Shown here: in pieces, positions 37,767-46,804 of the stretch
Layout of the letters: the number at the start of each line of letters is the position of its first letter
How positions within the stretch are numbered: the first letter of the stretch is position 1
From: Ewingella sp. CoE-038-23
Lineage (GTDB): Bacteria > Pseudomonadota > Gammaproteobacteria > Enterobacterales > Enterobacteriaceae
Length of the DNA: 64,000 bases
Reading direction: 5' to 3'
NCBI RefSeq assembly: GCF_040419245.1
Contig: NZ_JAZHOH010000001.1
Location: 248,001 to 312,000, forward strand
Made by a program: the position numbers and the translations under genes
The notes under the pieces: generated by a model
Told to the model about the DNA's origin: nothing
Database searches by the model: none
Seen by the model: the letters and a program-made list of their open reading frames with translations, nothing else

Positions 37767-38114
37767 GTGAATAACGGAACCGCATCTGTTAATACGGCAG
37801 GGCAAATTGGTTTGGAAGACGCAGAAGCAACCACAGAGAAAGTGTTAAAAGATATTCAGGTTATGTTGAACGCCGAAAATATCTATACCAATGATGTCCA
37901 GCAGCAGATGTTAGCCTCGCACGTTAAGGCAATGGTATTACGCTCTATTACCGGTGAGCCATTACCCGAGGTGGAAAAAGAGCTGTTTGACGAAATTTCT
38001 GCGGAGTCAATGCGAATGGCGGAGCGGGTTGTCGACCTGTTCGGTAATTTACCTATCGAAGAGGCTTATTTACTCTCGGTACATTTTGAAGTCGCAAAAG
38101 ACAATAATTCTTAA
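37767..38114 (+). CDS. single-PRD-domain protein (EF_0829/AHA_3910 family)
   Basis: A 115-residue protein that is essentially one PTS regulation domain, with no DNA-binding or RNA-binding domain. The two histidines expected to be phosphorylated by PTS proteins are present: His52 (LASHVKAMVLR) and His106 (YLLSVHFEVA). It starts with GTG about 9 bases after AGGGG. It is the first gene of the unknown cluster and is conserved there in both Enterococcus and Aeromonas. It may pass the PTS phosphorylation state to the large PRD regulator or to the transporter; its mechanism is unknown. Confidence 0.8.
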   Translation: MNNGTASVNTAGQIGLEDAEATTEKVLKDIQVMLNAENIYTNDVQQQMLASHVKAMVLRSITGEPLPEVEKELFDEISAESMRMAERVVDLFGNLPIEEAYLLSVHFEVAKDNNS

Positions 38115-38153
38115 CAATTTAAATTTTACTCAATTTATCTGGAGAAAGAACTC

Positions 38154-38519
38154 ATGGGACAAATTACCGTTGTTATCGGCGACCGTTTAGGGAAAGGCCA
38201 GAAAGTTGCAGCGGGCGTAGAAGCCGCAGGTGGCAAGGCTATCGTGGTGCCGGGCGTGGCCGCTGACATGAAATTAGGCGACGTGATGAAAGCAGAAAAT
38301 GCCACCTTCGGCATCTCTTTCTGCGGCAGTGGCGGCGCGGGCGCAATTACTGCGCAAACCAAATACGGATATAAAGCAAAATATGGAATGCGCTCTGTGG
38401 ATGAAGGCGTAACTGCAATTAACGAAGGCTGTAATGTATTAGGTTTCGGATTTATGGATAAAGAAGAGCTGGGTCAACGCCTGGTTGAAGCTTATATCAA
38501 GAAATTCGGCCAGCCGTAA
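38154..38519 (+). CDS. glycine-rich SFCGS family protein (EF_0830 family), function unknown
   Basis: A 121-residue soluble protein of the family named for its SFCGS motif, here GISFCGSGGAGAITAQ with Cys57. It starts ITVVIGDRLGKGQKVAAGV, resembling a Rossmann-like strand-loop-helix. The Cys-Gly-Ser-Gly loop resembles the phosphocysteine loop of PTS EIIB proteins (Cys-X-X-Gly), but it lies mid-chain rather than after the first strand. It overlaps the next gene by one base and belongs to the same operon. No function has been shown for the family, to my knowledge. Confidence 0.85.
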   Translation: MGQITVVIGDRLGKGQKVAAGVEAAGGKAIVVPGVAADMKLGDVMKAENATFGISFCGSGGAGAITAQTKYGYKAKYGMRSVDEGVTAINEGCNVLGFGFMDKEELGQRLVEAYIKKFGQP

Positions 38520-38815
38520 TGAAACAACAATTAACCACCACTGTTCGGGTTGAAGGAAAAGGCGAAAATAAGGCCGCCGCCTTTTCTGCCGCGCTGAGTC
38601 AGGTGCAAAGAACCGTTCTTAAATCTACGAATAATATCTTGCTGCGAATTGAACCGCAGGACGTCAAGGTGATCACCGCAGAAGAGACGGTAAGAAAGGA
38701 AAAGTTCCTGTTCTTTTTTCTGGCCAGAGAAAGGAAGAGTTATTACGTAGTGCTCGATATTACCGTCAATATGACGGCAATAGAGACTGACAAGGTAGTT
38801 TTTGTCACTAAATAA
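38519..38815 (+). CDS. DUF4312 family protein (EF_0831 family), function unknown
   Basis: A 98-residue soluble protein starting MKQQLTTTVRVEGKGENKAA, with alternating strands and the basic aromatic segment KEKFLFFFLARERKSYYVVL. It has no signal peptide and no clear transmembrane helix. Its ATG overlaps the preceding stop (TAATG), so translation is coupled. Constant presence beside two membrane proteins suggests a cytoplasmic subunit of a transporter; this is inference. Confidence 0.85.
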   Translation: MKQQLTTTVRVEGKGENKAAAFSAALSQVQRTVLKSTNNILLRIEPQDVKVITAEETVRKEKFLFFFLARERKSYYVVLDITVNMTAIETDKVVFVTK

Positions 38816-38816
38816 G

Positions 38817-38857
38817 GAGCCATTGAGTCAAGAATATTATTTCTTGGTGCAAGGCTC
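38817..38857 (+). other. intercistronic stem-loop before the DUF4311 gene
   Basis: Nested inverted repeats: GAGCC / GGCTC (38817-38821 with 38853-38857) enclosing CAAGAA / TTCTTG (38829-38834 with 38841-38846). It fills most of the only sizeable gap (77 bases) between the four unknown genes. There is no T run, so it is more likely an mRNA processing or stability element than a terminator. Confidence 0.5.
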
Positions 38858-38892
38858 TAAAAACGTTAGCTATAAATGACAAGGATATACTG

Positions 38893-39669
38893 ATGTTTTT
38901 AATTATTTTATTTAAGTCGCTTATTATCGGCGGATTGGTCGGCGTGGGCGTAGGTGCAGGTGCTGCACGTATGTTTCACGCGCCAAGCGTGCAAGGGATG
39001 GGGGCTTTTCGTACTCTTGGGGAATTAAATTCCTGTGAAGGCGATCCAGCTTCGCATTTCTCTTTCGGTTTAGGCTTCTTCTTCAACGCCTGGGCATCTT
39101 CTGTCGCTGCAGGTTCCTTCACACAAGACGTCGACCACCGCATTATTCCTCACTGGGCAGCCGCCTCGTTGATGGTGAAAAACCGCAACGTGTCTGAAAC
39201 CCTGCACGATCCGCGCAAGATGGCCATCGCCGGTGCTGTTATCGGCATGATTGTCGTCGCGTTCCTTAACACCACCGCCTCCGCCGTACCGGCAGCCTTG
39301 CAGGTTACTGCGGTGAAAGTGCTGGTGCCCGCTGCTAACCTGTTGGTCAACACCGTCATGCCAGTGATCTTCTGGCTGGCTGCGATTGACGCAGGCCGCC
39401 GCTCCGGCTTCTGGGCCACCATCTTCGGTGGTTTGGCGCAGATGATCATGGGTAACGCCGTGCCGGGTCTGGTACTGGGTATCTTGATTGGTAAAGGCGT
39501 CGAAGAGGGCGGCTGGAACCATGTGACTAAGGTGATGATGGCGGCAATTATTGCGCTGTTCGTGCTCAGCGGGTTCTTCCGCGGTTTCGATGTGAAATTG
39601 CTGCAGTCCTTCATGTTGGATGTTCCGGCATGGTTGAACGGCATTCACAACTCTCTTAGCGGCAAGTAA
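38893..39669 (+). CDS. DUF4311 domain membrane protein (EF_0832 family), function unknown
   Basis: A 258-residue integral membrane protein with about six hydrophobic helices, beginning MFLIILFKSLIIGGLVGVGVG. Between helices lies the conserved polar stretch GELNSCEGDPASHFSFGLGFFFNAWASS, with acidic and histidine residues that could line a substrate path. The next gene encodes a second, different membrane protein, so the two probably form a heteromeric permease. I recognise the family from conserved gene clusters but know of no assigned activity. Confidence 0.85.
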   Translation: MFLIILFKSLIIGGLVGVGVGAGAARMFHAPSVQGMGAFRTLGELNSCEGDPASHFSFGLGFFFNAWASSVAAGSFTQDVDHRIIPHWAAASLMVKNRNVSETLHDPRKMAIAGAVIGMIVVAFLNTTASAVPAALQVTAVKVLVPAANLLVNTVMPVIFWLAAIDAGRRSGFWATIFGGLAQMIMGNAVPGLVLGILIGKGVEEGGWNHVTKVMMAAIIALFVLSGFFRGFDVKLLQSFMLDVPAWLNGIHNSLSGK

Positions 39670-39678
39670 CAGGGGATT

Positions 39679-40332
39679 ATGACAATGGAAGAACAAGCCA
39701 AAAGTGGTTTTTGGTACGCCGAGTGGTCGTTCCCGATCTTCGTCGGATTACTCTCCTCCGGGGTATTTGCCGGTACGCACATGTACTACCTGTACGGCAT
39801 CGGTGCTTTTAACGAAGTCGCCTTCGTCTCAATGCTGCGTTCCGGCATGGATACCGGGGTGTATGGCGCAGTAGCGGCCTTCGGCGCGAGCTTCTTGTTC
39901 GCCCGTATTATCGAAGGTTCGCTGGTCGGTATTCTTGATATCGGCGGCGCTATCCAGACGGGTATTGGGCTAGGGGTTCCGGCGATTCTGCTGGGTGCTG
40001 GCATCGTGTTCCCGGTGGCGAACTTCGCGGCGTCTCTGGTGACTGGCCTGATTCTGGGGCTGGCGGTGGGTTACATCATCATTCTGGCGCGTAAATTTAC
40101 CATCAACCAGAGTAACTCGACCTATGGCGCAGACGTCATGATGGGCGCGGGTAACGCCTCAGGCCGCTTCCTCGGCCCGTTGATTATCCTCTCCGCCATG
40201 GCGGCTTCAATCCCCATCGGTCTGGGGTCATTGCTCGGCGCGCTGGTGTTCTATATCTGGCAGAAACCGATCACCGGCGGCGCAATTTTAGGCGCGATGA
40301 TCCTCGGTGCAATTTTCCCAGTATCGCTGTAG
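39679..40332 (+). CDS. DUF4310 family membrane protein (EF_0833 family), function unknown
   Basis: A 217-residue integral membrane protein with about six hydrophobic, glycine-rich helices (for example GALVFYIWQKPITGGAILGA). The start MEEQAKSGFWYAEWSFPIFVG has a short amphipathic N-terminus. ATG codons at 39679 and 39685 are both possible after AGGGG. It lies 9 bases after the DUF4311 gene and is the last of the four unknown subunits. The glycine-rich helices and pairing recall PTS EIIC/EIID or small transporter subunits; that resemblance is weak. Confidence 0.85.
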   Translation: MTMEEQAKSGFWYAEWSFPIFVGLLSSGVFAGTHMYYLYGIGAFNEVAFVSMLRSGMDTGVYGAVAAFGASFLFARIIEGSLVGILDIGGAIQTGIGLGVPAILLGAGIVFPVANFAASLVTGLILGLAVGYIIILARKFTINQSNSTYGADVMMGAGNASGRFLGPLIILSAMAASIPIGLGSLLGALVFYIWQKPITGGAILGAMILGAIFPVSL

Positions 40333-40358
40333 TAGAAAGCAATAAAACGAGTTAAATC

Positions 40359-40386
40359 AGGCGTCGGCGGCTCGCCGCTGACGCCT
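40359..40386 (+). other. strong stem-loop between transporter and enzyme genes
   Basis: Inverted repeat AGGCGTCGGCGGC (40359-40371) / GCCGCTGACGCCT (40374-40386), 12 of 13 positions pairing, with a 2-base core that must open. No T run follows. It divides the operon exactly between the four DUF genes and the three catabolic genes and probably changes their relative mRNA levels. Confidence 0.6.
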
Positions 40387-40449
40387 AAAAGCAGGACAGA
40401 ACGGGGCGGGTGGCCACTGTGACTGCCCTGCGTTTACGGAGAATGGCGT

Positions 40450-41592
40450 ATGTTGTATGACCTGATAATCCGACAGGCAAAAAGCTCAGACGGCAGCTTG
40501 ACGGATATTGCAATTCACGACGGTAAAATCGCCGCCATCGGCCAGCTGGATTCCAGCGTCAGCGCCAAACGGATTCTCGAACTACAGGGCAAGGTTTTCG
40601 CCAGCGCCGGGTGGATCGACTCTCATGTTCACTGTTATAGCAAATCGCCGATTTATCACGACGAGCCGGATTTAGTCGGCGTCGCCAGCGGCGTCACCAC
40701 GGTTATTGATGCAGGCAGCACCGGCGCGAACGACGTCGATGACTTCTACCAGCTGACCCGCCAGGCCAAAACCAACGTCTTTGCTTTCCTCAATATCGCC
40801 CGTACCGGCATCGTGACCCAAAACGAGCTGGCGGACATGGAGCAAATCGACAAAGTGGGCGTGCGCGAATCCATTGCCCGCAACCCCGGCTTCATCATTG
40901 GTATCAAAGCTCGCATGAGCAGCAGCGTAGTGGGCAAAAACGGCATTAAGCCGCTGATCCGCGCCAAAGAAATTCAGCAGGAAAACGACGACCTGCCGCT
41001 GATGGTGCACATTGGCAATAACCCGCCAAATCTGGATGAAATCGCCGATTTACTCACTTCGGGCGACATCATCACCCACTGCTATAACGGCAAACCCAAC
41101 CGCATTTTATCGCCAGAGGGCGTGCTGCGAGATTCGATTAAACGCGCCCTGAGCCGCGGCGTGCGTCTCGACGTCGGCCACGGCAGCGCCAGCTTTAGCT
41201 TTGAAGTGGCCCAGTTGGCCATTCAGCAAGGCATTTTGCCGCACACCATCAGCTCCGATATTTACTGCCGCAACCGCGTCAACGGCCCGGTCCACAGCCT
41301 GGCTGCGGTGATGTCCAAGTTCTTTACCGTCGGCATGACGTTAGAACAGGTGATTGATTGTGTCACCTGTAACGCCGCCGACGCGCTTCGCCTGCCGTCA
41401 AAAGGACGCCTCGAAGTCGGTGCCGACGCTGACCTGACGCTGTTTGAGATCCAACACGCGCCGAAAGTCTTTCTCGACTCCGAAGGCCAGTCAGTGACCG
41501 GCGAACACCATCTGATCCCACTGGCCGCCGTGGTCGCTGGCGTCACCCTATTAACTGATGAAGGGAAATCAAATCATGTCTTCCAATGCTGA
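40450..41592 (+). CDS. amidohydrolase/deacetylase family metallohydrolase (EF_0837/AHA_3915 family)
   Basis: Binuclear-metal amidohydrolase of 380 residues. The metal ligands expected for the superfamily are visible: H59 and H61 (GWIDSHVHC), Lys153 (IIGIKARMS, probably carboxylated), His187 (LMVHIGNN), His210 (ITHCYNG) and Asp270 (ISSDIYC). It could remove an N-acyl group from the amino acid sugar handled by the following DgaE-like enzyme. The end overlaps the next gene by 17 bases, so the two are co-translated. The substrate is not known; a dihydroorotase-like cyclic amide hydrolysis is the main alternative. Confidence 0.85.
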   Translation: MLYDLIIRQAKSSDGSLTDIAIHDGKIAAIGQLDSSVSAKRILELQGKVFASAGWIDSHVHCYSKSPIYHDEPDLVGVASGVTTVIDAGSTGANDVDDFYQLTRQAKTNVFAFLNIARTGIVTQNELADMEQIDKVGVRESIARNPGFIIGIKARMSSSVVGKNGIKPLIRAKEIQQENDDLPLMVHIGNNPPNLDEIADLLTSGDIITHCYNGKPNRILSPEGVLRDSIKRALSRGVRLDVGHGSASFSFEVAQLAIQQGILPHTISSDIYCRNRVNGPVHSLAAVMSKFFTVGMTLEQVIDCVTCNAADALRLPSKGRLEVGADADLTLFEIQHAPKVFLDSEGQSVTGEHHLIPLAAVVAGVTLLTDEGKSNHVFQC

Positions 41593-42703
41593 TCTCTACG
41601 AAAAATATAAGCTAAAACAGGTCATTAATGCTTCAGGTCGTATGACCGCGCTGGGCGTGTCTACCCCGCGCCCGGAAGTGGCTGACGTGGTGAATACTGG
41701 TCTGAATCACTACTTCGAAATGAAGGATTTGGTCAATAAAACCGGGGCTTACATCGCCAAACTGCTGGATGTTGAAAACGCGGTAGTGGTGTCCTGCGCC
41801 TCGGCGGGGATTGCTCAGTCCGTCGCCGCCGTGATTATCAAAGACAATGCCTGGCTGCTGGAAAACCTGCACGCCGCGCCGCTGGACGTGCCGCACGACA
41901 TCGTGCTGCCGAAGGGCCACAATGTAAACTTCGGCGCGCCGGTCGGCACCATGATCACCCTGGGTGGCGGTAAAATTGTTGAAGCCGGTTATGCCAACGA
42001 ATGCTCTGCTGCCCAGCTGGCGGCCTGCATTACGCCGCGCACCGCCGCGATTATGTACATCAAATCGCACCACTCGGTGCAGAAAAGCATTCTCTCCGTG
42101 GAAGAAGCCGCCGCCGTGGCGCAGGAGCACAACCTCCCGCTGATCGTCGATGCCGCCGCTGAAGAAGATCTGACCTGCTACTACAACATGGGCGCAACGC
42201 TGGTGATTTACAGCGGCGCGAAGGCCATCGAAGGCCCAACCAGCGGCTTGGTGCTGGGCAAGCACCAGTACGTCGAGTGGGTGAAGCAGCAGTCCGGCGG
42301 CATTGGCCGCGCGATGAAAGTGGGTAAAGAGGGCATTCTTGGCTTAACGCAGGCGATTGAAAGTTACATCACTCAGCCGAAAACCACCGGGCAGGAGATG
42401 GTGGACAAGATGACGCCATTCATCGACAGCCTGAACCAAATCAACGGTGTGAGTGGCCGCGTGGTGTGGGACAGCGCCGGGCGCGACATTGCGCGCACCG
42501 AAATCACGTTCGACGAAGCCGTGCTGGGTTGGAAAACCAAAGCCATCGTGGAAGCGATGAAAGAGGGCGATATCGCGGTGTACTTCCGTGGCTACCGCGC
42601 CAACGAAGGCAAGATTGAAGTCGACGTGCGCAGCGTGACTCCGCCGCAGTTAGCCATCGTCGCTGAACGTTTCAAACAACTTTTTGATGGAGCAAAAGCA
42701 TGA
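41576..42703 (+). CDS. DgaE-like PLP-dependent ammonia lyase (SelA-related)
   Basis: Fold-type I PLP enzyme of 375 residues related to SelA and to Salmonella DgaE, which converts D-glucosaminate-6-phosphate into 2-keto-3-deoxy-6-phosphogluconate and ammonia. The PLP lysine is expected in VIYSGAKAIEGPTSGLVLG, and the cofactor aspartate in LPLIVDAAAEEDL. The start MSSNADLYEKYKLKQVINAS is chosen over an ATG 18 bases upstream. It overlaps the amidohydrolase by 17 bases and the aldolase by 4. The substrate is inferred to be a 2-amino-2-deoxy aldonate phosphate. Confidence 0.85.
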   Translation: MSSNADLYEKYKLKQVINASGRMTALGVSTPRPEVADVVNTGLNHYFEMKDLVNKTGAYIAKLLDVENAVVVSCASAGIAQSVAAVIIKDNAWLLENLHAAPLDVPHDIVLPKGHNVNFGAPVGTMITLGGGKIVEAGYANECSAAQLAACITPRTAAIMYIKSHHSVQKSILSVEEAAAVAQEHNLPLIVDAAAEEDLTCYYNMGATLVIYSGAKAIEGPTSGLVLGKHQYVEWVKQQSGGIGRAMKVGKEGILGLTQAIESYITQPKTTGQEMVDKMTPFIDSLNQINGVSGRVVWDSAGRDIARTEITFDEAVLGWKTKAIVEAMKEGDIAVYFRGYRANEGKIEVDVRSVTPPQLAIVAERFKQLFDGAKA

Positions 42704-43440
42704 ACCTGACCCCGAACTTCTACCGCGATCGCGTGTGTCTGAACGTGCTGGCAGGCTCCAAAGACAACGCCCGCGACATCTATGACGCGGCGCAGGGCCA
42801 CGTGCTGGTTGGCGTGCTTTCCAAGAACTATGCCGATGTACCTTCTGCCGTGGCGGATATGAAAGAGTACGCGTCGCTGATTGAAAATGCCCTGTCCGTC
42901 GGGCTTGGCGCGGGCGATCCGCGCCAGTCGCTGATGGTCAGCCTGATTTCACAGCACGTCCAGCCGCAGCACGTCAATCAGGTGTTCACCGGCGTGGGCA
43001 CCAGCCGCGCGCTGCTGGGCCAAAACGACAGCGTGGTTAACGGCCTGATCTCCCCAACCGGCAAAGTGGGCTGGGTTAAAATCAACACCGGGCCATTGAG
43101 CGCCTCGCAGCCCGACGCCATCGTGCCGGTCGAAACCGCCATTGCGCTGCTCAAAGACATGGGCGGCAGCTCGGTGAAATACTTCCCGATGGGCGGCCTG
43201 AAGACCCGTGATGAGTTCGCCGCCGTGGCGCGCGCCTGCGCCGAGCACGATTTCTGGCTGGAGCCGACCGGTGGTATCGATCTGGAAAACTTCGAGCCGA
43301 TCATGGAGATCGCCCTCGAAGCCGGGGTGAGCAAAATCATTCCGCACATCTATAGCTCGATTATCGACAGCACCAGCGGCGACACCCGTCCGGCCGATGT
43401 CAGAACCCTGCTGGCGAGCGTCAAAAAGCTCGTAAGCTGA
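42700..43440 (+). CDS. KDGP/KDPG aldolase family protein (DgaF-like, EF_0839 family)
   Basis: Class I type TIM-barrel aldolase of 246 residues, related to DgaF, predicted to cleave 2-keto-3-deoxy-6-phosphogluconate into pyruvate and glyceraldehyde-3-phosphate. The active-site strand segments VGWVKINTGPLS and VKYFPMGGLKTRDEF are present; a lysine on one of them should form the Schiff base. Its ATG overlaps the DgaE-like stop (ATGA). With the two upstream enzymes it forms a complete deacylate-deaminate-cleave route to central metabolism. Confidence 0.85.
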   Translation: MNLTPNFYRDRVCLNVLAGSKDNARDIYDAAQGHVLVGVLSKNYADVPSAVADMKEYASLIENALSVGLGAGDPRQSLMVSLISQHVQPQHVNQVFTGVGTSRALLGQNDSVVNGLISPTGKVGWVKINTGPLSASQPDAIVPVETAIALLKDMGGSSVKYFPMGGLKTRDEFAAVARACAEHDFWLEPTGGIDLENFEPIMEIALEAGVSKIIPHIYSSIIDSTSGDTRPADVRTLLASVKKLVS

Positions 43441-43562: not shown

Positions 43563-44759
43563 ATGAGAAACTGGTTACTGATTTCAGGTTTAACATCCGC
43601 GATGCTGGCGATGTCTGCCACGCCGCTCTACGCAGCAGAAAAAGCCATGGCCCAAACTTCACACTATGCCTATGTCGGGACTTACAATCCCAATGGCGAA
43701 GGCGTCTATCGTTTTAAATTTGATAGCAAAACCGGCGCGCTGACTGAGCGCGTGCTGGCCAGCCAGTTGCCGAATCAGGCACAGATGGTGCTGAGCCACG
43801 ACGGCAAAACGCTGTTCATTGGCAGCGAAATCGATAACTTCAATGGCGGCAAAAACGGTGCGATTGCGGCATATAAAATCAACCCGCAGGACGGCAGCTT
43901 AACGCTGATCAATCAGGTAGATTCACAGGGCGCAGGTCCGGTGTACCTATCGCTGACGCCAAAAGGCGATCACCTGCTGGTGGCTAACTACATCAGCGGC
44001 GTGGTGGCGACTTTCCCGGTGGATGCCAGTGGCAAACTGGGCGAAGCCAGCGATCATCAACAGGACTCAGGCCCGGCCGGTGCCGCCAAACCTGAAGCTG
44101 CGGCGCCGGGCAGTTTTGCCGCCAGCGACCACAACGGCCCGCATGCGCACATGATCGCCACCGATCCGAGCGGCAAGTTTGTCTTCTCAACCGATCTGGG
44201 TCTGGACAGGATCTATCAGTGGAAGCTGGACAGTGCCAGCGGCAAGCTGGAAGCCAACGATCCTCCGTTTATCAACGCCTCTTCCGCCGGTGCGGGGCCG
44301 CGCCATTTCGTGTTCCACCCGAACGGCAAAGTGGTGTTCCTGATTAACGAAGAAGCTTCGACCCTGACCAGCTATCGCTTCGACAGCGCCAAAGGCACGC
44401 TGACCCAGCTGCACGTGCTCTCTTCATTACCTGCTAACTTTAAAGGCACCAACTTTGCCGCCGGTATCGTGCTGAGCAAGGATGGCCATCACCTTTACGT
44501 GGCGAACCGCCTGCATAACAGCATCGCGCAAATCAACGTGACGGGCGAGGGGGCAATGACCTTCGCGGAAGAAGCCTGGACCCGTGGCGACTACCCGCGC
44601 ACGCTGACCTTGTCGCCGGATGGAAAATACATTTACGCGATGAATCAACGAAGCGATAACATCACTCGATTCAAGATTGCCGCCGAGAGCGGTAAACTGA
44701 CTTTTGTTGATGATTACACGCCAGTGGGCAGCCCGTCGCAGATGGTGATTGTTCCTTAA
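43563..44759 (+). CDS. exported seven-bladed beta-propeller lactonase family protein
   Basis: A 398-residue member of the lactonase (6-phosphogluconolactonase YbhE/Pgl) propeller family with a Sec signal peptide (residues 1-24, ending LYA before AEK), so it acts in the periplasm. Repeats such as LSHDGKTLFIGSE, LTPKGDHLLVANY, FHPNGKVVFLINE and LSPDGKYIYAMNQ mark the blades. The ATG at 43563 follows GAGG by 6 bases and gives a clean signal. It lies 122 bases after the aldolase and before the regulator, so it probably serves the same pathway by opening an aldonolactone before uptake. Substrate inferred only. Confidence 0.82.
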   Translation: MRNWLLISGLTSAMLAMSATPLYAAEKAMAQTSHYAYVGTYNPNGEGVYRFKFDSKTGALTERVLASQLPNQAQMVLSHDGKTLFIGSEIDNFNGGKNGAIAAYKINPQDGSLTLINQVDSQGAGPVYLSLTPKGDHLLVANYISGVVATFPVDASGKLGEASDHQQDSGPAGAAKPEAAAPGSFAASDHNGPHAHMIATDPSGKFVFSTDLGLDRIYQWKLDSASGKLEANDPPFINASSAGAGPRHFVFHPNGKVVFLINEEASTLTSYRFDSAKGTLTQLHVLSSLPANFKGTNFAAGIVLSKDGHHLYVANRLHNSIAQINVTGEGAMTFAEEAWTRGDYPRTLTLSPDGKYIYAMNQRSDNITRFKIAAESGKLTFVDDYTPVGSPSQMVIVP

Positions 44760-44884
44760 GCCGTTTTACCTCGTGAGGTAGGCGGAAAATAACGGGTGCG
44801 GGGTGACGCGGTTGGTCATCCCGCCTTGTCATTTCAAGTGGCAGTAGAATTGATGTTTCACAGCAACAACCGACTGGAAGGATT

Positions 44885-46804
44885 ATGGTGAGATTTCCCT
44901 ATCAACGACTGGCCCATCTGTTTGATGCCCTACAGGCCGAAACGCTGCCTCAGGACGAGCTGGCGAAGCGCCTTGACGTCTCCACTCGCACCGTGCGCGC
45001 TGATATTACCGCGCTGAATGAAATTATGGCCCAGTACGGCGCTTCCTTTGTGCATAACCGCGGTAGCGGCTATCAGCTGAAAATCGACGATCAGACGCTG
45101 TTCTCTGCGTTGCAGGAAACCAATAATCGTCGGGTCAGCCCAACGCCGCGCACCGCGCCGGAGCGGGTGAATTACCTGCTTATACGCTTTTTGACCTCAG
45201 CCTTTTCCCTCAAGCTAGAAGATCTGGCCGATGAATGGTTTGTCAGCCGGGGAACCCTGCAAAATGATATGGCTGAGGTCAGAGAACGTCTGGCACGTTA
45301 CCACCTGAGCATTGAAACCAAGCCGCGTTACGGCATGAAGCTGTTTGGCGCCGAGCTGGCGATTCGCTCCTGCCTGACGGATTTGCTGTTCCAGCTGGAA
45401 AGCGACGAGCAGAGCCATCCGCTGCTGAAAACCGAGAGTCTGGCGCTTGAGGCGCTGGGGCCGTTAACCGATTTTATGCACCAGTCGCTGGCGCAGTCCT
45501 CGATCCAACTGACCGATGAAGGTGAGCAGTACCTGATTCTGTACTGCGCGGTGGCGATTAAGCGCATTAGCGGCGGCTATCCGTTAACGGATTTTGATGC
45601 TGAAGAGGGCGACCCGGCGGTGAAGCAGGTCTCTACGCGCCTGGCGGCCGAGCTTAAGGCGCTAGTCGGTAAGGAGATCCCGGCGGCTGAAGAGGCCTAT
45701 TTGCGGGTGAATATCGCGGCACGGCGGGTGCAGAACATCCTGCCGACGGATATTAATGCCGATGACGATGAGTCGCTGGTGGACTACATTCTGTCCTACA
45801 TCAATGCGCACTATAACTATGATTTACAAGGGGATAAGCAGCTCCGCGCCGACTTGCTCACCCATATCAAAACCATGATAACCCGGGTGAAGTATCAGAT
45901 TAACATCCCCAACCCGCTGCTGAGCAACATCAAACAGCACTACCCAATGGCCTACGACGTCACGCTGGCGGCGGTATCGAGCTGGGGCAAATACACCCCT
46001 TATTCGCTCAGTGAAAACGAAATCGGTTTTCTGGTGCTGCATATCGGCGTCGGGCTGGAGCGCCACTACAACATCGGCTACCAGCGCCATCCGCAGGTGA
46101 TGCTGGTGTGCGATACCGGCAACTCGACCATTCGCATGATTCAGGCGCAGATCAGCCGCAAATACCCGCAGCTGGTGGTGACGCAAGTGGTGACGCTGCG
46201 AGATTACGAGAAGCTGGAGCACATCGACGAAGATTTCATTATCTCCAATGCGCGCATCACCGAGAAGAACAAGCCGGTGGTGGTGCTGTCGCCATTCCCC
46301 ACCGAGTACCAGATGGAGCAGCTCGGCAAGCTGGTGCTGGTGGACCGCACGCGGCCCTATATGCTGGAGAAGTTTTTCGACGAGCGCCATTTCATGATAA
46401 TCAATCAGCCGATGACCCAGGCCGAGCTATTCCACAAGGTGTGCAGCCAGCTGGAAGAAGAGGGCTATGTCGACGCAGAGTTCTATCCGTCAGTGGTCGA
46501 GCGCGAAGAGATTGTGTCGACCATGCTGGGCGAAGGCATTGCGCTGCCGCACTCGCTGGGGCTGCTCGCCAAGAAGACGGTGGTGATCACCCTGCTATCC
46601 CCGCAGGGCATTGAGTGGGGCGATGGCGAAACTGCGCACGTGATTTTCCTGCTGGCGATCAGCAAAGCGGACTATGAAGAGGCGATGGCGATTTACGATT
46701 TGTTCGTGACGTTTGTGCGGGAAAGGTCGATGAGCCGTTTGCTAAGTAGTGAAAGTTTTAATTCTTTTAAAGCGATAGCGATAGATTGTTTGAGTAGAAT
46801 TTAA
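44885..46804 (+). CDS. PTS-controlled PRD transcription regulator (BglG/MtlR type)
   Basis: A 639-residue multidomain regulator. Two N-terminal winged helix-turn-helix domains (recognition helices DVSTRTVRADITALN and FVSRGTLQNDMAEVR) are followed by PRD1 (about 185-290), PRD2 (about 295-395), an EIIB-like domain with Cys409 (VCDTGNST), and an EIIA-like domain with His556 (GIALPHSLG). PRD2 keeps both histidines (His327, His386). PRD1 has Tyr220 where the conserved histidine usually stands. It probably controls the upstream operon according to PTS phosphorylation. There is no AAA+ sigma54 domain, unlike DgaR. Confidence 0.88.
   Translation: MVRFPYQRLAHLFDALQAETLPQDELAKRLDVSTRTVRADITALNEIMAQYGASFVHNRGSGYQLKIDDQTLFSALQETNNRRVSPTPRTAPERVNYLLIRFLTSAFSLKLEDLADEWFVSRGTLQNDMAEVRERLARYHLSIETKPRYGMKLFGAELAIRSCLTDLLFQLESDEQSHPLLKTESLALEALGPLTDFMHQSLAQSSIQLTDEGEQYLILYCAVAIKRISGGYPLTDFDAEEGDPAVKQVSTRLAAELKALVGKEIPAAEEAYLRVNIAARRVQNILPTDINADDDESLVDYILSYINAHYNYDLQGDKQLRADLLTHIKTMITRVKYQINIPNPLLSNIKQHYPMAYDVTLAAVSSWGKYTPYSLSENEIGFLVLHIGVGLERHYNIGYQRHPQVMLVCDTGNSTIRMIQAQISRKYPQLVVTQVVTLRDYEKLEHIDEDFIISNARITEKNKPVVVLSPFPTEYQMEQLGKLVLVDRTRPYMLEKFFDERHFMIINQPMTQAELFHKVCSQLEEEGYVDAEFYPSVVEREEIVSTMLGEGIALPHSLGLLAKKTVVITLLSPQGIEWGDGETAHVIFLLAISKADYEEAMAIYDLFVTFVRERSMSRLLSSESFNSFKAIAIDCLSRI

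Follow-up and report, generated by a model that had tools for sequence, protein, structure and literature searches.

The closest described relative of the locus examined here is the dga operon of Salmonella. According to one report (PMC9529869), its DgaABCD permease imports D-glucosaminate as the 6-phosphate, and DgaE and DgaF act through formation and then cleavage of a 2-keto-3-deoxy acid phosphate. The locus of interest is an operon in a 64,000-nucleotide stretch of Ewingella sp. CoE-038-23 (NZ_JAZHOH010000001.1, positions 248,001–312,000, forward strand), hereafter called the window. The operon resembles DgaABCDEF of Salmonella in its last two enzyme families, in their order, in a retained set of arginines, and in having an uptake module encoded upstream of the enzyme genes. 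In contrast, the mannose-class enzyme II (EII) genes of the phosphotransferase system (PTS) and the dgaR-type activator are replaced by a cassette of SFCGS, DUF4312, DUF4311, and DUF4310 proteins (the DUF cassette), an amidohydrolase, and a PRD-EIIA regulator. The operon is best called a variant of the Dga pathway whose uptake module appears to be unrelated. It is not assigned to the plain Dga pathway because its DgaE scores below the curated equivalog cut-off and because no mannose-class EII genes were found with Pfam among the window genes.

A profile search of the open reading frames (ORFs) of the window places all eight genes between 37767 and 43440, on the + strand, above the cut-offs of their own families. 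These cut-offs are curated TIGR/NCBIfam bit scores, and the domains of window genes were taken from Pfam. The start of DgaE is taken as 41576, whereas the ORF list has 41558. The eight genes and the features that follow them are:

37767..38114, + strand: single-PRD protein, TIGR03582 (135 bits; cut-off 69)
38154..38519, + strand: SFCGS protein, TIGR03577/PF14272, weakly similar to RpiB/LacAB (above cut-off)
38519..38815, + strand: DUF4312 protein, TIGR03578 (124 bits; cut-off 90)
38893..39669, + strand: DUF4311 membrane protein, TIGR03580 (497 bits; cut-off 301)
39679..40332, + strand: DUF4310 membrane protein with hydrophobic segments, TIGR03579 (393 bits; cut-off 215)
40450..41592, + strand: amidohydrolase/deacetylase, TIGR03583 (559.5 bits; cut-off 432.2)
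41576..42703, + strand: DgaE-family pyridoxal phosphate-dependent ammonia lyase, TIGR01437 (580.5 bits; cut-off 385.3)
42700..43440, + strand: DgaF, a KDGP aldolase, NF047796/PF07071 (383.2 bits; equivalog cut-off 300)
43563..44759, + strand: lactonase, PF10282 (Pfam), with a leader-like N terminus by eye; an optional member
44798..44824, + strand: terminator-like stem and putative operon end, from a consensus scan only
44885..46804, + strand: regulator with helix-turn-helix, Mga, PRD, and EIIA_2 domains (Pfam) and an EIIB-like loop (by eye)

The SFCGS and DUF4312 genes overlap by 1 base, the amidohydrolase and DgaE genes by 17, and the DgaE and DgaF genes by 4; the remaining gaps are 39, 77, 9, and 117 bases. 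The family matches and coordinates thus confirm the rightward eight-gene operon, its order, and its overlaps or short gaps as given in an initial annotation of this DNA made from the sequence alone. That annotation had overlooked the lactonase, the terminator-like stem, the PRD/EIIA regulator, and the fused HPr and enzyme I (EI) found with the operon elsewhere. The scan that located the stem returned 13 terminator-like sites, compared with 8.9 expected.

Elsewhere, the position of the DUF cassette can be occupied by a mannose-class PTS. In a sample of 149 genomes from the same family as the window, DgaE exceeds its cut-off in 69, and DUF4311 is present in the same 69. The raw DUF4311 count was 70, from which a spurious match in G755 (48 residues, 26.9 bits) was removed; two genomes with broken genes (G028 and G760) are retained among the 69. 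The 149 genomes hold 80 DgaE places, and 69 of these lie on the same strand as DUF4311 and within 6 kb of it. At each of the other 11, a dgaR-like regulator and genes for mannose-class EIIB, EIIC, and EIID precede DgaE and DgaF, and the amidohydrolase is missing. All 11 fall in genomes that also carry the DUF operon. A larger sample of 375 genomes from the order, which overlaps with the first, gives a similar picture: DUF4311 exceeds its cut-off in 59 genomes (G830 and G903 fall below it) and DgaE in 60, and by eye the 59 all lie within the 60. The sole DgaE-only genome, G826, carries a decayed DUF operon in which DgaE is intact. When EIIB, EIIC, EIID, and DgaR sequences were searched by tblastn against 94 DUF loci, of which 11 cover just a short region surrounding DUF4311 and a few more are truncated where the contig stops, only a single EIIB-like match was returned (L081).

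One genome, G1069, appears to have exchanged the two modules in front of nearly the same enzymes. Of its two copies of DgaE, one belongs to a DUF operon (L252) and the other to a dgaR-EIIB-EIIC-EIID operon that lacks the amidohydrolase (L251). DgaE and DgaF of L251 are 99% and 97% identical to those of L252, but only 40–42% and 43–47% identical to the usual mannose-PTS enzymes with which they were compared, and the L251 DgaE branches within the DUF-linked clade of the tree. The DNA similarity of the two loci is confined to dgaEF (1,841 bases, 99.1%), with an identical middle and differences at the ends, a pattern that looks like gene conversion. Because near-identical DgaE and DgaF stand behind both modules, it can be argued that DgaE receives one kind of compound from either module. 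A weaker case of module exchange is suggested by a Lacticaseibacillus plasmid, where a mannose-class PTS accompanies a DgaE that is 64% identical to the enzyme of the Enterococcus faecalis DUF operon, but only 49% identical to that of the window and 45% to that of L169, which is of the usual mannose-PTS type. Such exchange, like gene content, can be read from the sequences themselves, as can the conserved active sites and the link to a PTS gene considered below.

The DgaE encoded behind the cassette also retains the arginines of a presumed phosphate site. In the Salmonella lyase (DGL), manual docking places the phosphate near Arg301, Arg332, and Arg346 (PMC9529869). By Salmonella numbering, this set is present in all 83 full-length DUF-linked DgaE sequences and in 10 of 10 mannose-PTS DgaE sequences, the latter count covering 10 of the 11 loci. 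The one relative examined that has no DgaF and is linked to an ABC transporter (L180) carries Cys at position 346. Arg226 of DGL is conserved in neither class, and His162 is replaced by alanine in the Bartonella copy of DgaE.

A source for the phosphate is suggested by the gene content of the loci. In a search that covered the loci only, the kinases of Enterococcus, Clostridioides, and Priestia have relatives at 1 of the 94 DUF loci, which is that of E. faecalis itself, and at none of 13 mannose-PTS loci. The Priestia operon, by comparison, has an annotated transporter other than a PTS and does include a sugar kinase. Taken together with the arginines, this gene content leads us to infer that the DUF cassette acts in the manner of a phosphorylating permease. 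Furthermore, on two Bartonella plasmids, whose host strains are probably close relatives, the complete operon and its regulator are followed directly by a gene annotated as ptsP. In the HY406 record this gene encodes an HPr-EI fusion of 671 residues, with PTS-HPr at residues 9–86 and the EI domains after it. Histidines His52 and His106 of the single-PRD protein are invariant in 86 of 86 sequences. The EIIA His556 of the regulator is kept in 73 of 74 sequences and the Cys409 of its EIIB-like loop in 71 of 74 (L027 dropped). The ptsP neighbor and the conserved histidines could reflect either phosphorylating transport or merely PTS control of expression. Beside the DUF operon on the plasmid of Bartonella sp. 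HY761 (L189:121-7085) there is an inverted duplication of a rep/parA/RelE-type toxin block.

The amidohydrolase belongs with enzymes of the cog3964 group, as we take its relatives PDB 2ics, 2ogj, and 8wzy to be. It is closely similar in sequence to 8wzy (E value 4e-170) and to 2ics (1e-110), presumably the protein EF0837, and it is also related to 2ogj. Once five cut-off sequences are set aside, all 83 remaining sequences keep the six residues that, judging from the superfamily at large, presumably form the metal site. Two cog3964 members reportedly hydrolyze acetyl-(R)-mandelate, and N-acetyl-D-serine weakly, an activity that would be consistent with an alpha-acylamino acid in the D-type configuration. 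The amidohydrolase tracks the DUF cassette and is absent from all 13 mannose-PTS loci examined, which suggests that the substrates of the two modules differ in acylation.

We propose that the operon might work as follows. The lactonase, where present, would open an N-acyl-aldonolactone outside the cytoplasm. The SFCGS, DUF4312, DUF4311, and DUF4310 proteins would import an N-acylated 2-amino-aldonic acid, for example N-acetyl-D-glucosaminate, in place of a mannose-class PTS permease, and would probably deliver it phosphorylated at C6, with the phosphate drawn from phosphoenolpyruvate (PEP) via EI and HPr. Judging from its family and context, the cytoplasmic amidohydrolase would then strip the acyl group. 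By homology, DgaE is predicted to form a 2-keto-3-deoxy-aldonate-6-phosphate by eliminating water and ammonia, and DgaF would cleave this product to pyruvate and glyceraldehyde-3-phosphate. The conserved histidines suggest that PTS phosphorylation switches the operon through its PRD protein and PRD-EIIA regulator. We infer transport, phosphorylation, substrate, and the order of steps, and although this scheme is the best explanation as a whole, we consider the chances that it is correct to be about even.

Part of this proposal had been anticipated. The claim of the initial annotation that the DUF proteins stand in for the PTS permease is well supported by the split among the 149 genomes and by G1069. 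Its suggestion of deacylation by the amidohydrolase is in keeping with the pairing of this enzyme with the DUF cassette and with its absence at the mannose-PTS loci, but the enzyme accompanies other transporters too, as described next. Considered as a whole, the annotation is only partly supported, and it left unaddressed how the substrate acquires the 6-phosphate on which the Salmonella enzymes depend.

Several observations weigh against the scheme. The Arg301/332/346 set is also present in a Clostridioides plasmid copy beside a lactose-family PTS, in a Priestia plasmid copy beside a gluconate symporter, and, by eye, in PDB 8t7j, and therefore the set alone does not establish the route by which phosphate arrives. 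Likewise, the amidohydrolase accompanies a gluconate symporter at one locus and a lactose-family PTS at another, and a distant relative of it is found with an ABC transporter. The window DgaE scores 354.5 bits against NF047797, the equivalog for D-glucosaminate-6-phosphate ammonia-lyase, whose cut-off is 600, and therefore the exact substrate is not fixed. The exchange in G1069 is known from one assembly and may be a misassembly. Finally, comparison of DUF4311 and DUF4310 with mannose EIIC and EIID gives hhalign probabilities of at most 2.7%, from alignments of low diversity and without a positive control.

Alternatively, the cassette could be a non-PTS transporter. Its substrate would then enter unphosphorylated, a kinase would be encoded elsewhere, and the PTS parts would be purely regulatory. 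In favor of this alternative, the E. faecalis operon includes a PfkB kinase and a Priestia operon combines the amidohydrolase, DgaE, and DgaF with an annotated gluconate symporter and a sugar kinase. No EII homology is detected in the cassette, and PRD-EIIA regulators are commonly regulatory. However, relatives of the three kinases lie near just one of the 94 DUF loci, ptsP is carried along on both Bartonella plasmids, mannose-class PTS modules occupy the same position as the cassette, and near-identical enzymes are served by both modules in G1069. This alternative is a serious one, but we regard it as distinctly less probable than phosphorylating uptake.

It is comparably unlikely, in our estimation, that the substrate is some other compound acted on by DgaE-like lyases, for instance a 2-amino-aldonate of another epimeric form or some other N-acyl derivative of a D-amino acid. 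The window DgaE shares only 40% identity with a usual mannose-PTS DgaE and lies under the equivalog cut-off, and where both operons coexist, as in 11 genomes, that with the DUF cassette may be used for another compound. These arguments are countered by the near-identical DgaE and DgaF common to both modules in G1069, by the full arginine set in DgaE, and by a DgaF score above its equivalog cut-off. It is quite improbable that the four DUF proteins instead form a membrane-bound enzyme or sensor, for example an epimerase or isomerase with SFCGS as the catalytic part and uptake left to another protein, as the weak likeness of SFCGS to sugar isomerases (with Cys and Asp kept) and an extra EIIC in the E. 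faecalis operon might suggest, since relatives without the cassette have known transporters at that position (mannose PTS, lactose-family PTS, gluconate symporter, or ABC transporter) and neither the window operon nor that of the Bartonella plasmids shows a further transporter.

If the DUF cassette is a phosphorylating permease, as we prefer, its proteins are not recognizably those of a known one. Pfam returns no EII match for the four window proteins. Among 76 relatives of DUF4310, one matches an EII family (E value 1.1), and there is no consistent match to any other Pfam family. By hhalign, again with low-diversity alignments and no positive control, DUF4311 and DUF4310 have no kinship with each other that is detectable by sequence. 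A model of DUF4311 alone is all helical, with a mean predicted local distance difference test score of 75.8 and a predicted template modeling score of 0.56. In a comparison with 319 chains, no family stands out from what widespread helical arrangements would give. No His or Cys of DUF4312 is conserved at 90% among 88 sequences (L032 dropped).

In contrast to DUF4312, SFCGS has a candidate for a catalytic or phosphate-carrying residue, as both Cys57 and Asp10 are invariant (88 of 88 sequences, L032 dropped). An apparent SFCGS-DUF4312 fusion in L032 was rejected as a frame change, and two-domain proteins joining DUF4311 and DUF4310 (e.g., P0077 and P0102) were left unused as possible frame errors. 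SFCGS is weakly similar to RpiB/LacAB and to YhfU. Among 25 SFCGS members, 17 match LacAB_rpiB at E values of 1 or lower (best 0.0012) and 8 match DUF2620, the YhfU family, at the same threshold (best 0.0062). Thirteen of the 25 match DUF1685 (best 0.0041), a match that covers only residues 92–112 in the window protein. With an RpiB profile, SFCGS ranks first among 128 window ORFs (E value 0.013) with the cysteines in register, and we take the RpiB cysteine aligned with Cys57 to be the catalytic one. The RpiB set comprises 18 sequences from 29 loci that were selected by a cysteine motif. The likeness is limited, however, as the window SFCGS scores 15.5 bits for LacAB_rpiB, below the Pfam gathering score of 24.7, and the SFCGS-RpiB hhalign probability is 18%. 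Nevertheless, the pairs SFCGS-RpiB, YhfU-RpiB, and SFCGS-YhfU are the top three of the 15 compared.

The yhf operon, with YhfY (PRD), YhfU (DUF2620), and YhfT, shares with the DUF operon a layout of single-PRD protein, small protein with a Cys loop, and membrane protein. The same Ewingella genome carries a yhf operon at C1:3843000-3858000 (L183), and the only NCBIfam match of its YhfY is to TIGR03582, below the cut-off. When the SFCGS profile was run against 71 ORFs, the four YhfU proteins gave the four best matches (E values 0.003–0.1). Unlike this small protein, YhfT has no detected similarity to DUF4311 or DUF4310 (hhalign probability 0.1–0.2%, under the limits given above), and the yhf operon has other enzymes. 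A weak PF14188 match in Escherichia coli was rejected as a sign of YhfT kinship: a like match in L101 belongs to a protein that appears DjlA-like by eye, and YhfT itself has no similarity to the cassette proteins DUF4311 and DUF4310.

A more far-reaching version of the phosphorylating permease can be formulated from these likenesses. The PRD, SFCGS, DUF4312, DUF4311, and DUF4310 proteins might constitute a new class of PEP-dependent permease, unrelated in sequence to the known EII superfamilies, in which phosphate would pass from HPr to a PRD or EIIA histidine, then to Cys57 of SFCGS, and finally to the substrate during transport by DUF4311 and DUF4310, with yhfYUT as a second branch. We consider this version doubtful, and clearly less probable than either of the two leading alternatives discussed above.

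The operon itself is stably maintained. The nearest relatives of the window DUF4311 in a set of public genomes are from Ewingella americana (one record is 100% identical), Hafnia psychrotolerans, and Rahnella. For a measure of conservation, the best 80 of 540 related stretches from named genomes were used, of which 79 are titled Enterobacterales and one Xenophilus. The set from the PRD gene through DUF4310 is complete in all 80 loci. Gene order is not due to chance, because all eight genes are kept in order in 79 of 80, with L061 reaching a contig end after DUF4310. The loci are mostly close relatives of the window, and therefore they reveal stability rather than 80 independent events. The regulator is found downstream in 78 loci, and the other two are short contigs. 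By a stricter reading-frame count, the PRD gene is present in 77 of the 80, the regulator in 71, and the lactonase in 36. The cassette operon also occurs in Enterococcus and Bartonella records. No relative of the operon was found in the viral contigs searched.

The enzymes are also found in other settings. In E. faecalis (L103) and on a Clostridioides difficile plasmid (L255), amidohydrolase, DgaE, DgaF, and kinase genes are accompanied by MupG and a component of a lactose/cellobiose-type PTS, a neighborhood that may point to a connection with amino sugars of the cell wall. The E. faecalis record has a shortened DgaF reading frame (L103:15573-16064). Two further loci, L180 (in G004) and L181 (in G054), lack DgaF and combine an amidohydrolase relative with a peptide-type ABC transporter, a protein that looks RidA-like by eye, and a DgaE-like lyase, which in L181 is broken. 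Three records filed as plasmids (NZ_AP026896, NZ_CP143580, and NZ_CP129856) resemble chromosomes or pieces of chromosomes in size or gene content.

In the literature, a search that left most subscription papers outside its reach found no study on the function of the cassette, and single genes are merely named. EF0838, the lyase gene of E. faecalis, is named in two papers (PMC11135667; PMC7701990) and STM4445 in another (PMC7432712), STM4446 is listed among the genes expressed in a co-culture (PMC11000858), and dgaE and dgaF are reported to be duplicated in E. faecalis (PMC7396535).

With the comparisons made here, four conserved protein families that had no function, and that occur in 69 of the 149 genomes sampled from one large bacterial family, gain a role that can be tested. 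The operon also allows a pathway to be predicted by which N-acylated amino-sugar acids would be broken down, a class of nutrient that few papers in the literature searched have named. If uptake by the cassette is indeed phosphorylating, then PTS permeases exist beyond the known families.

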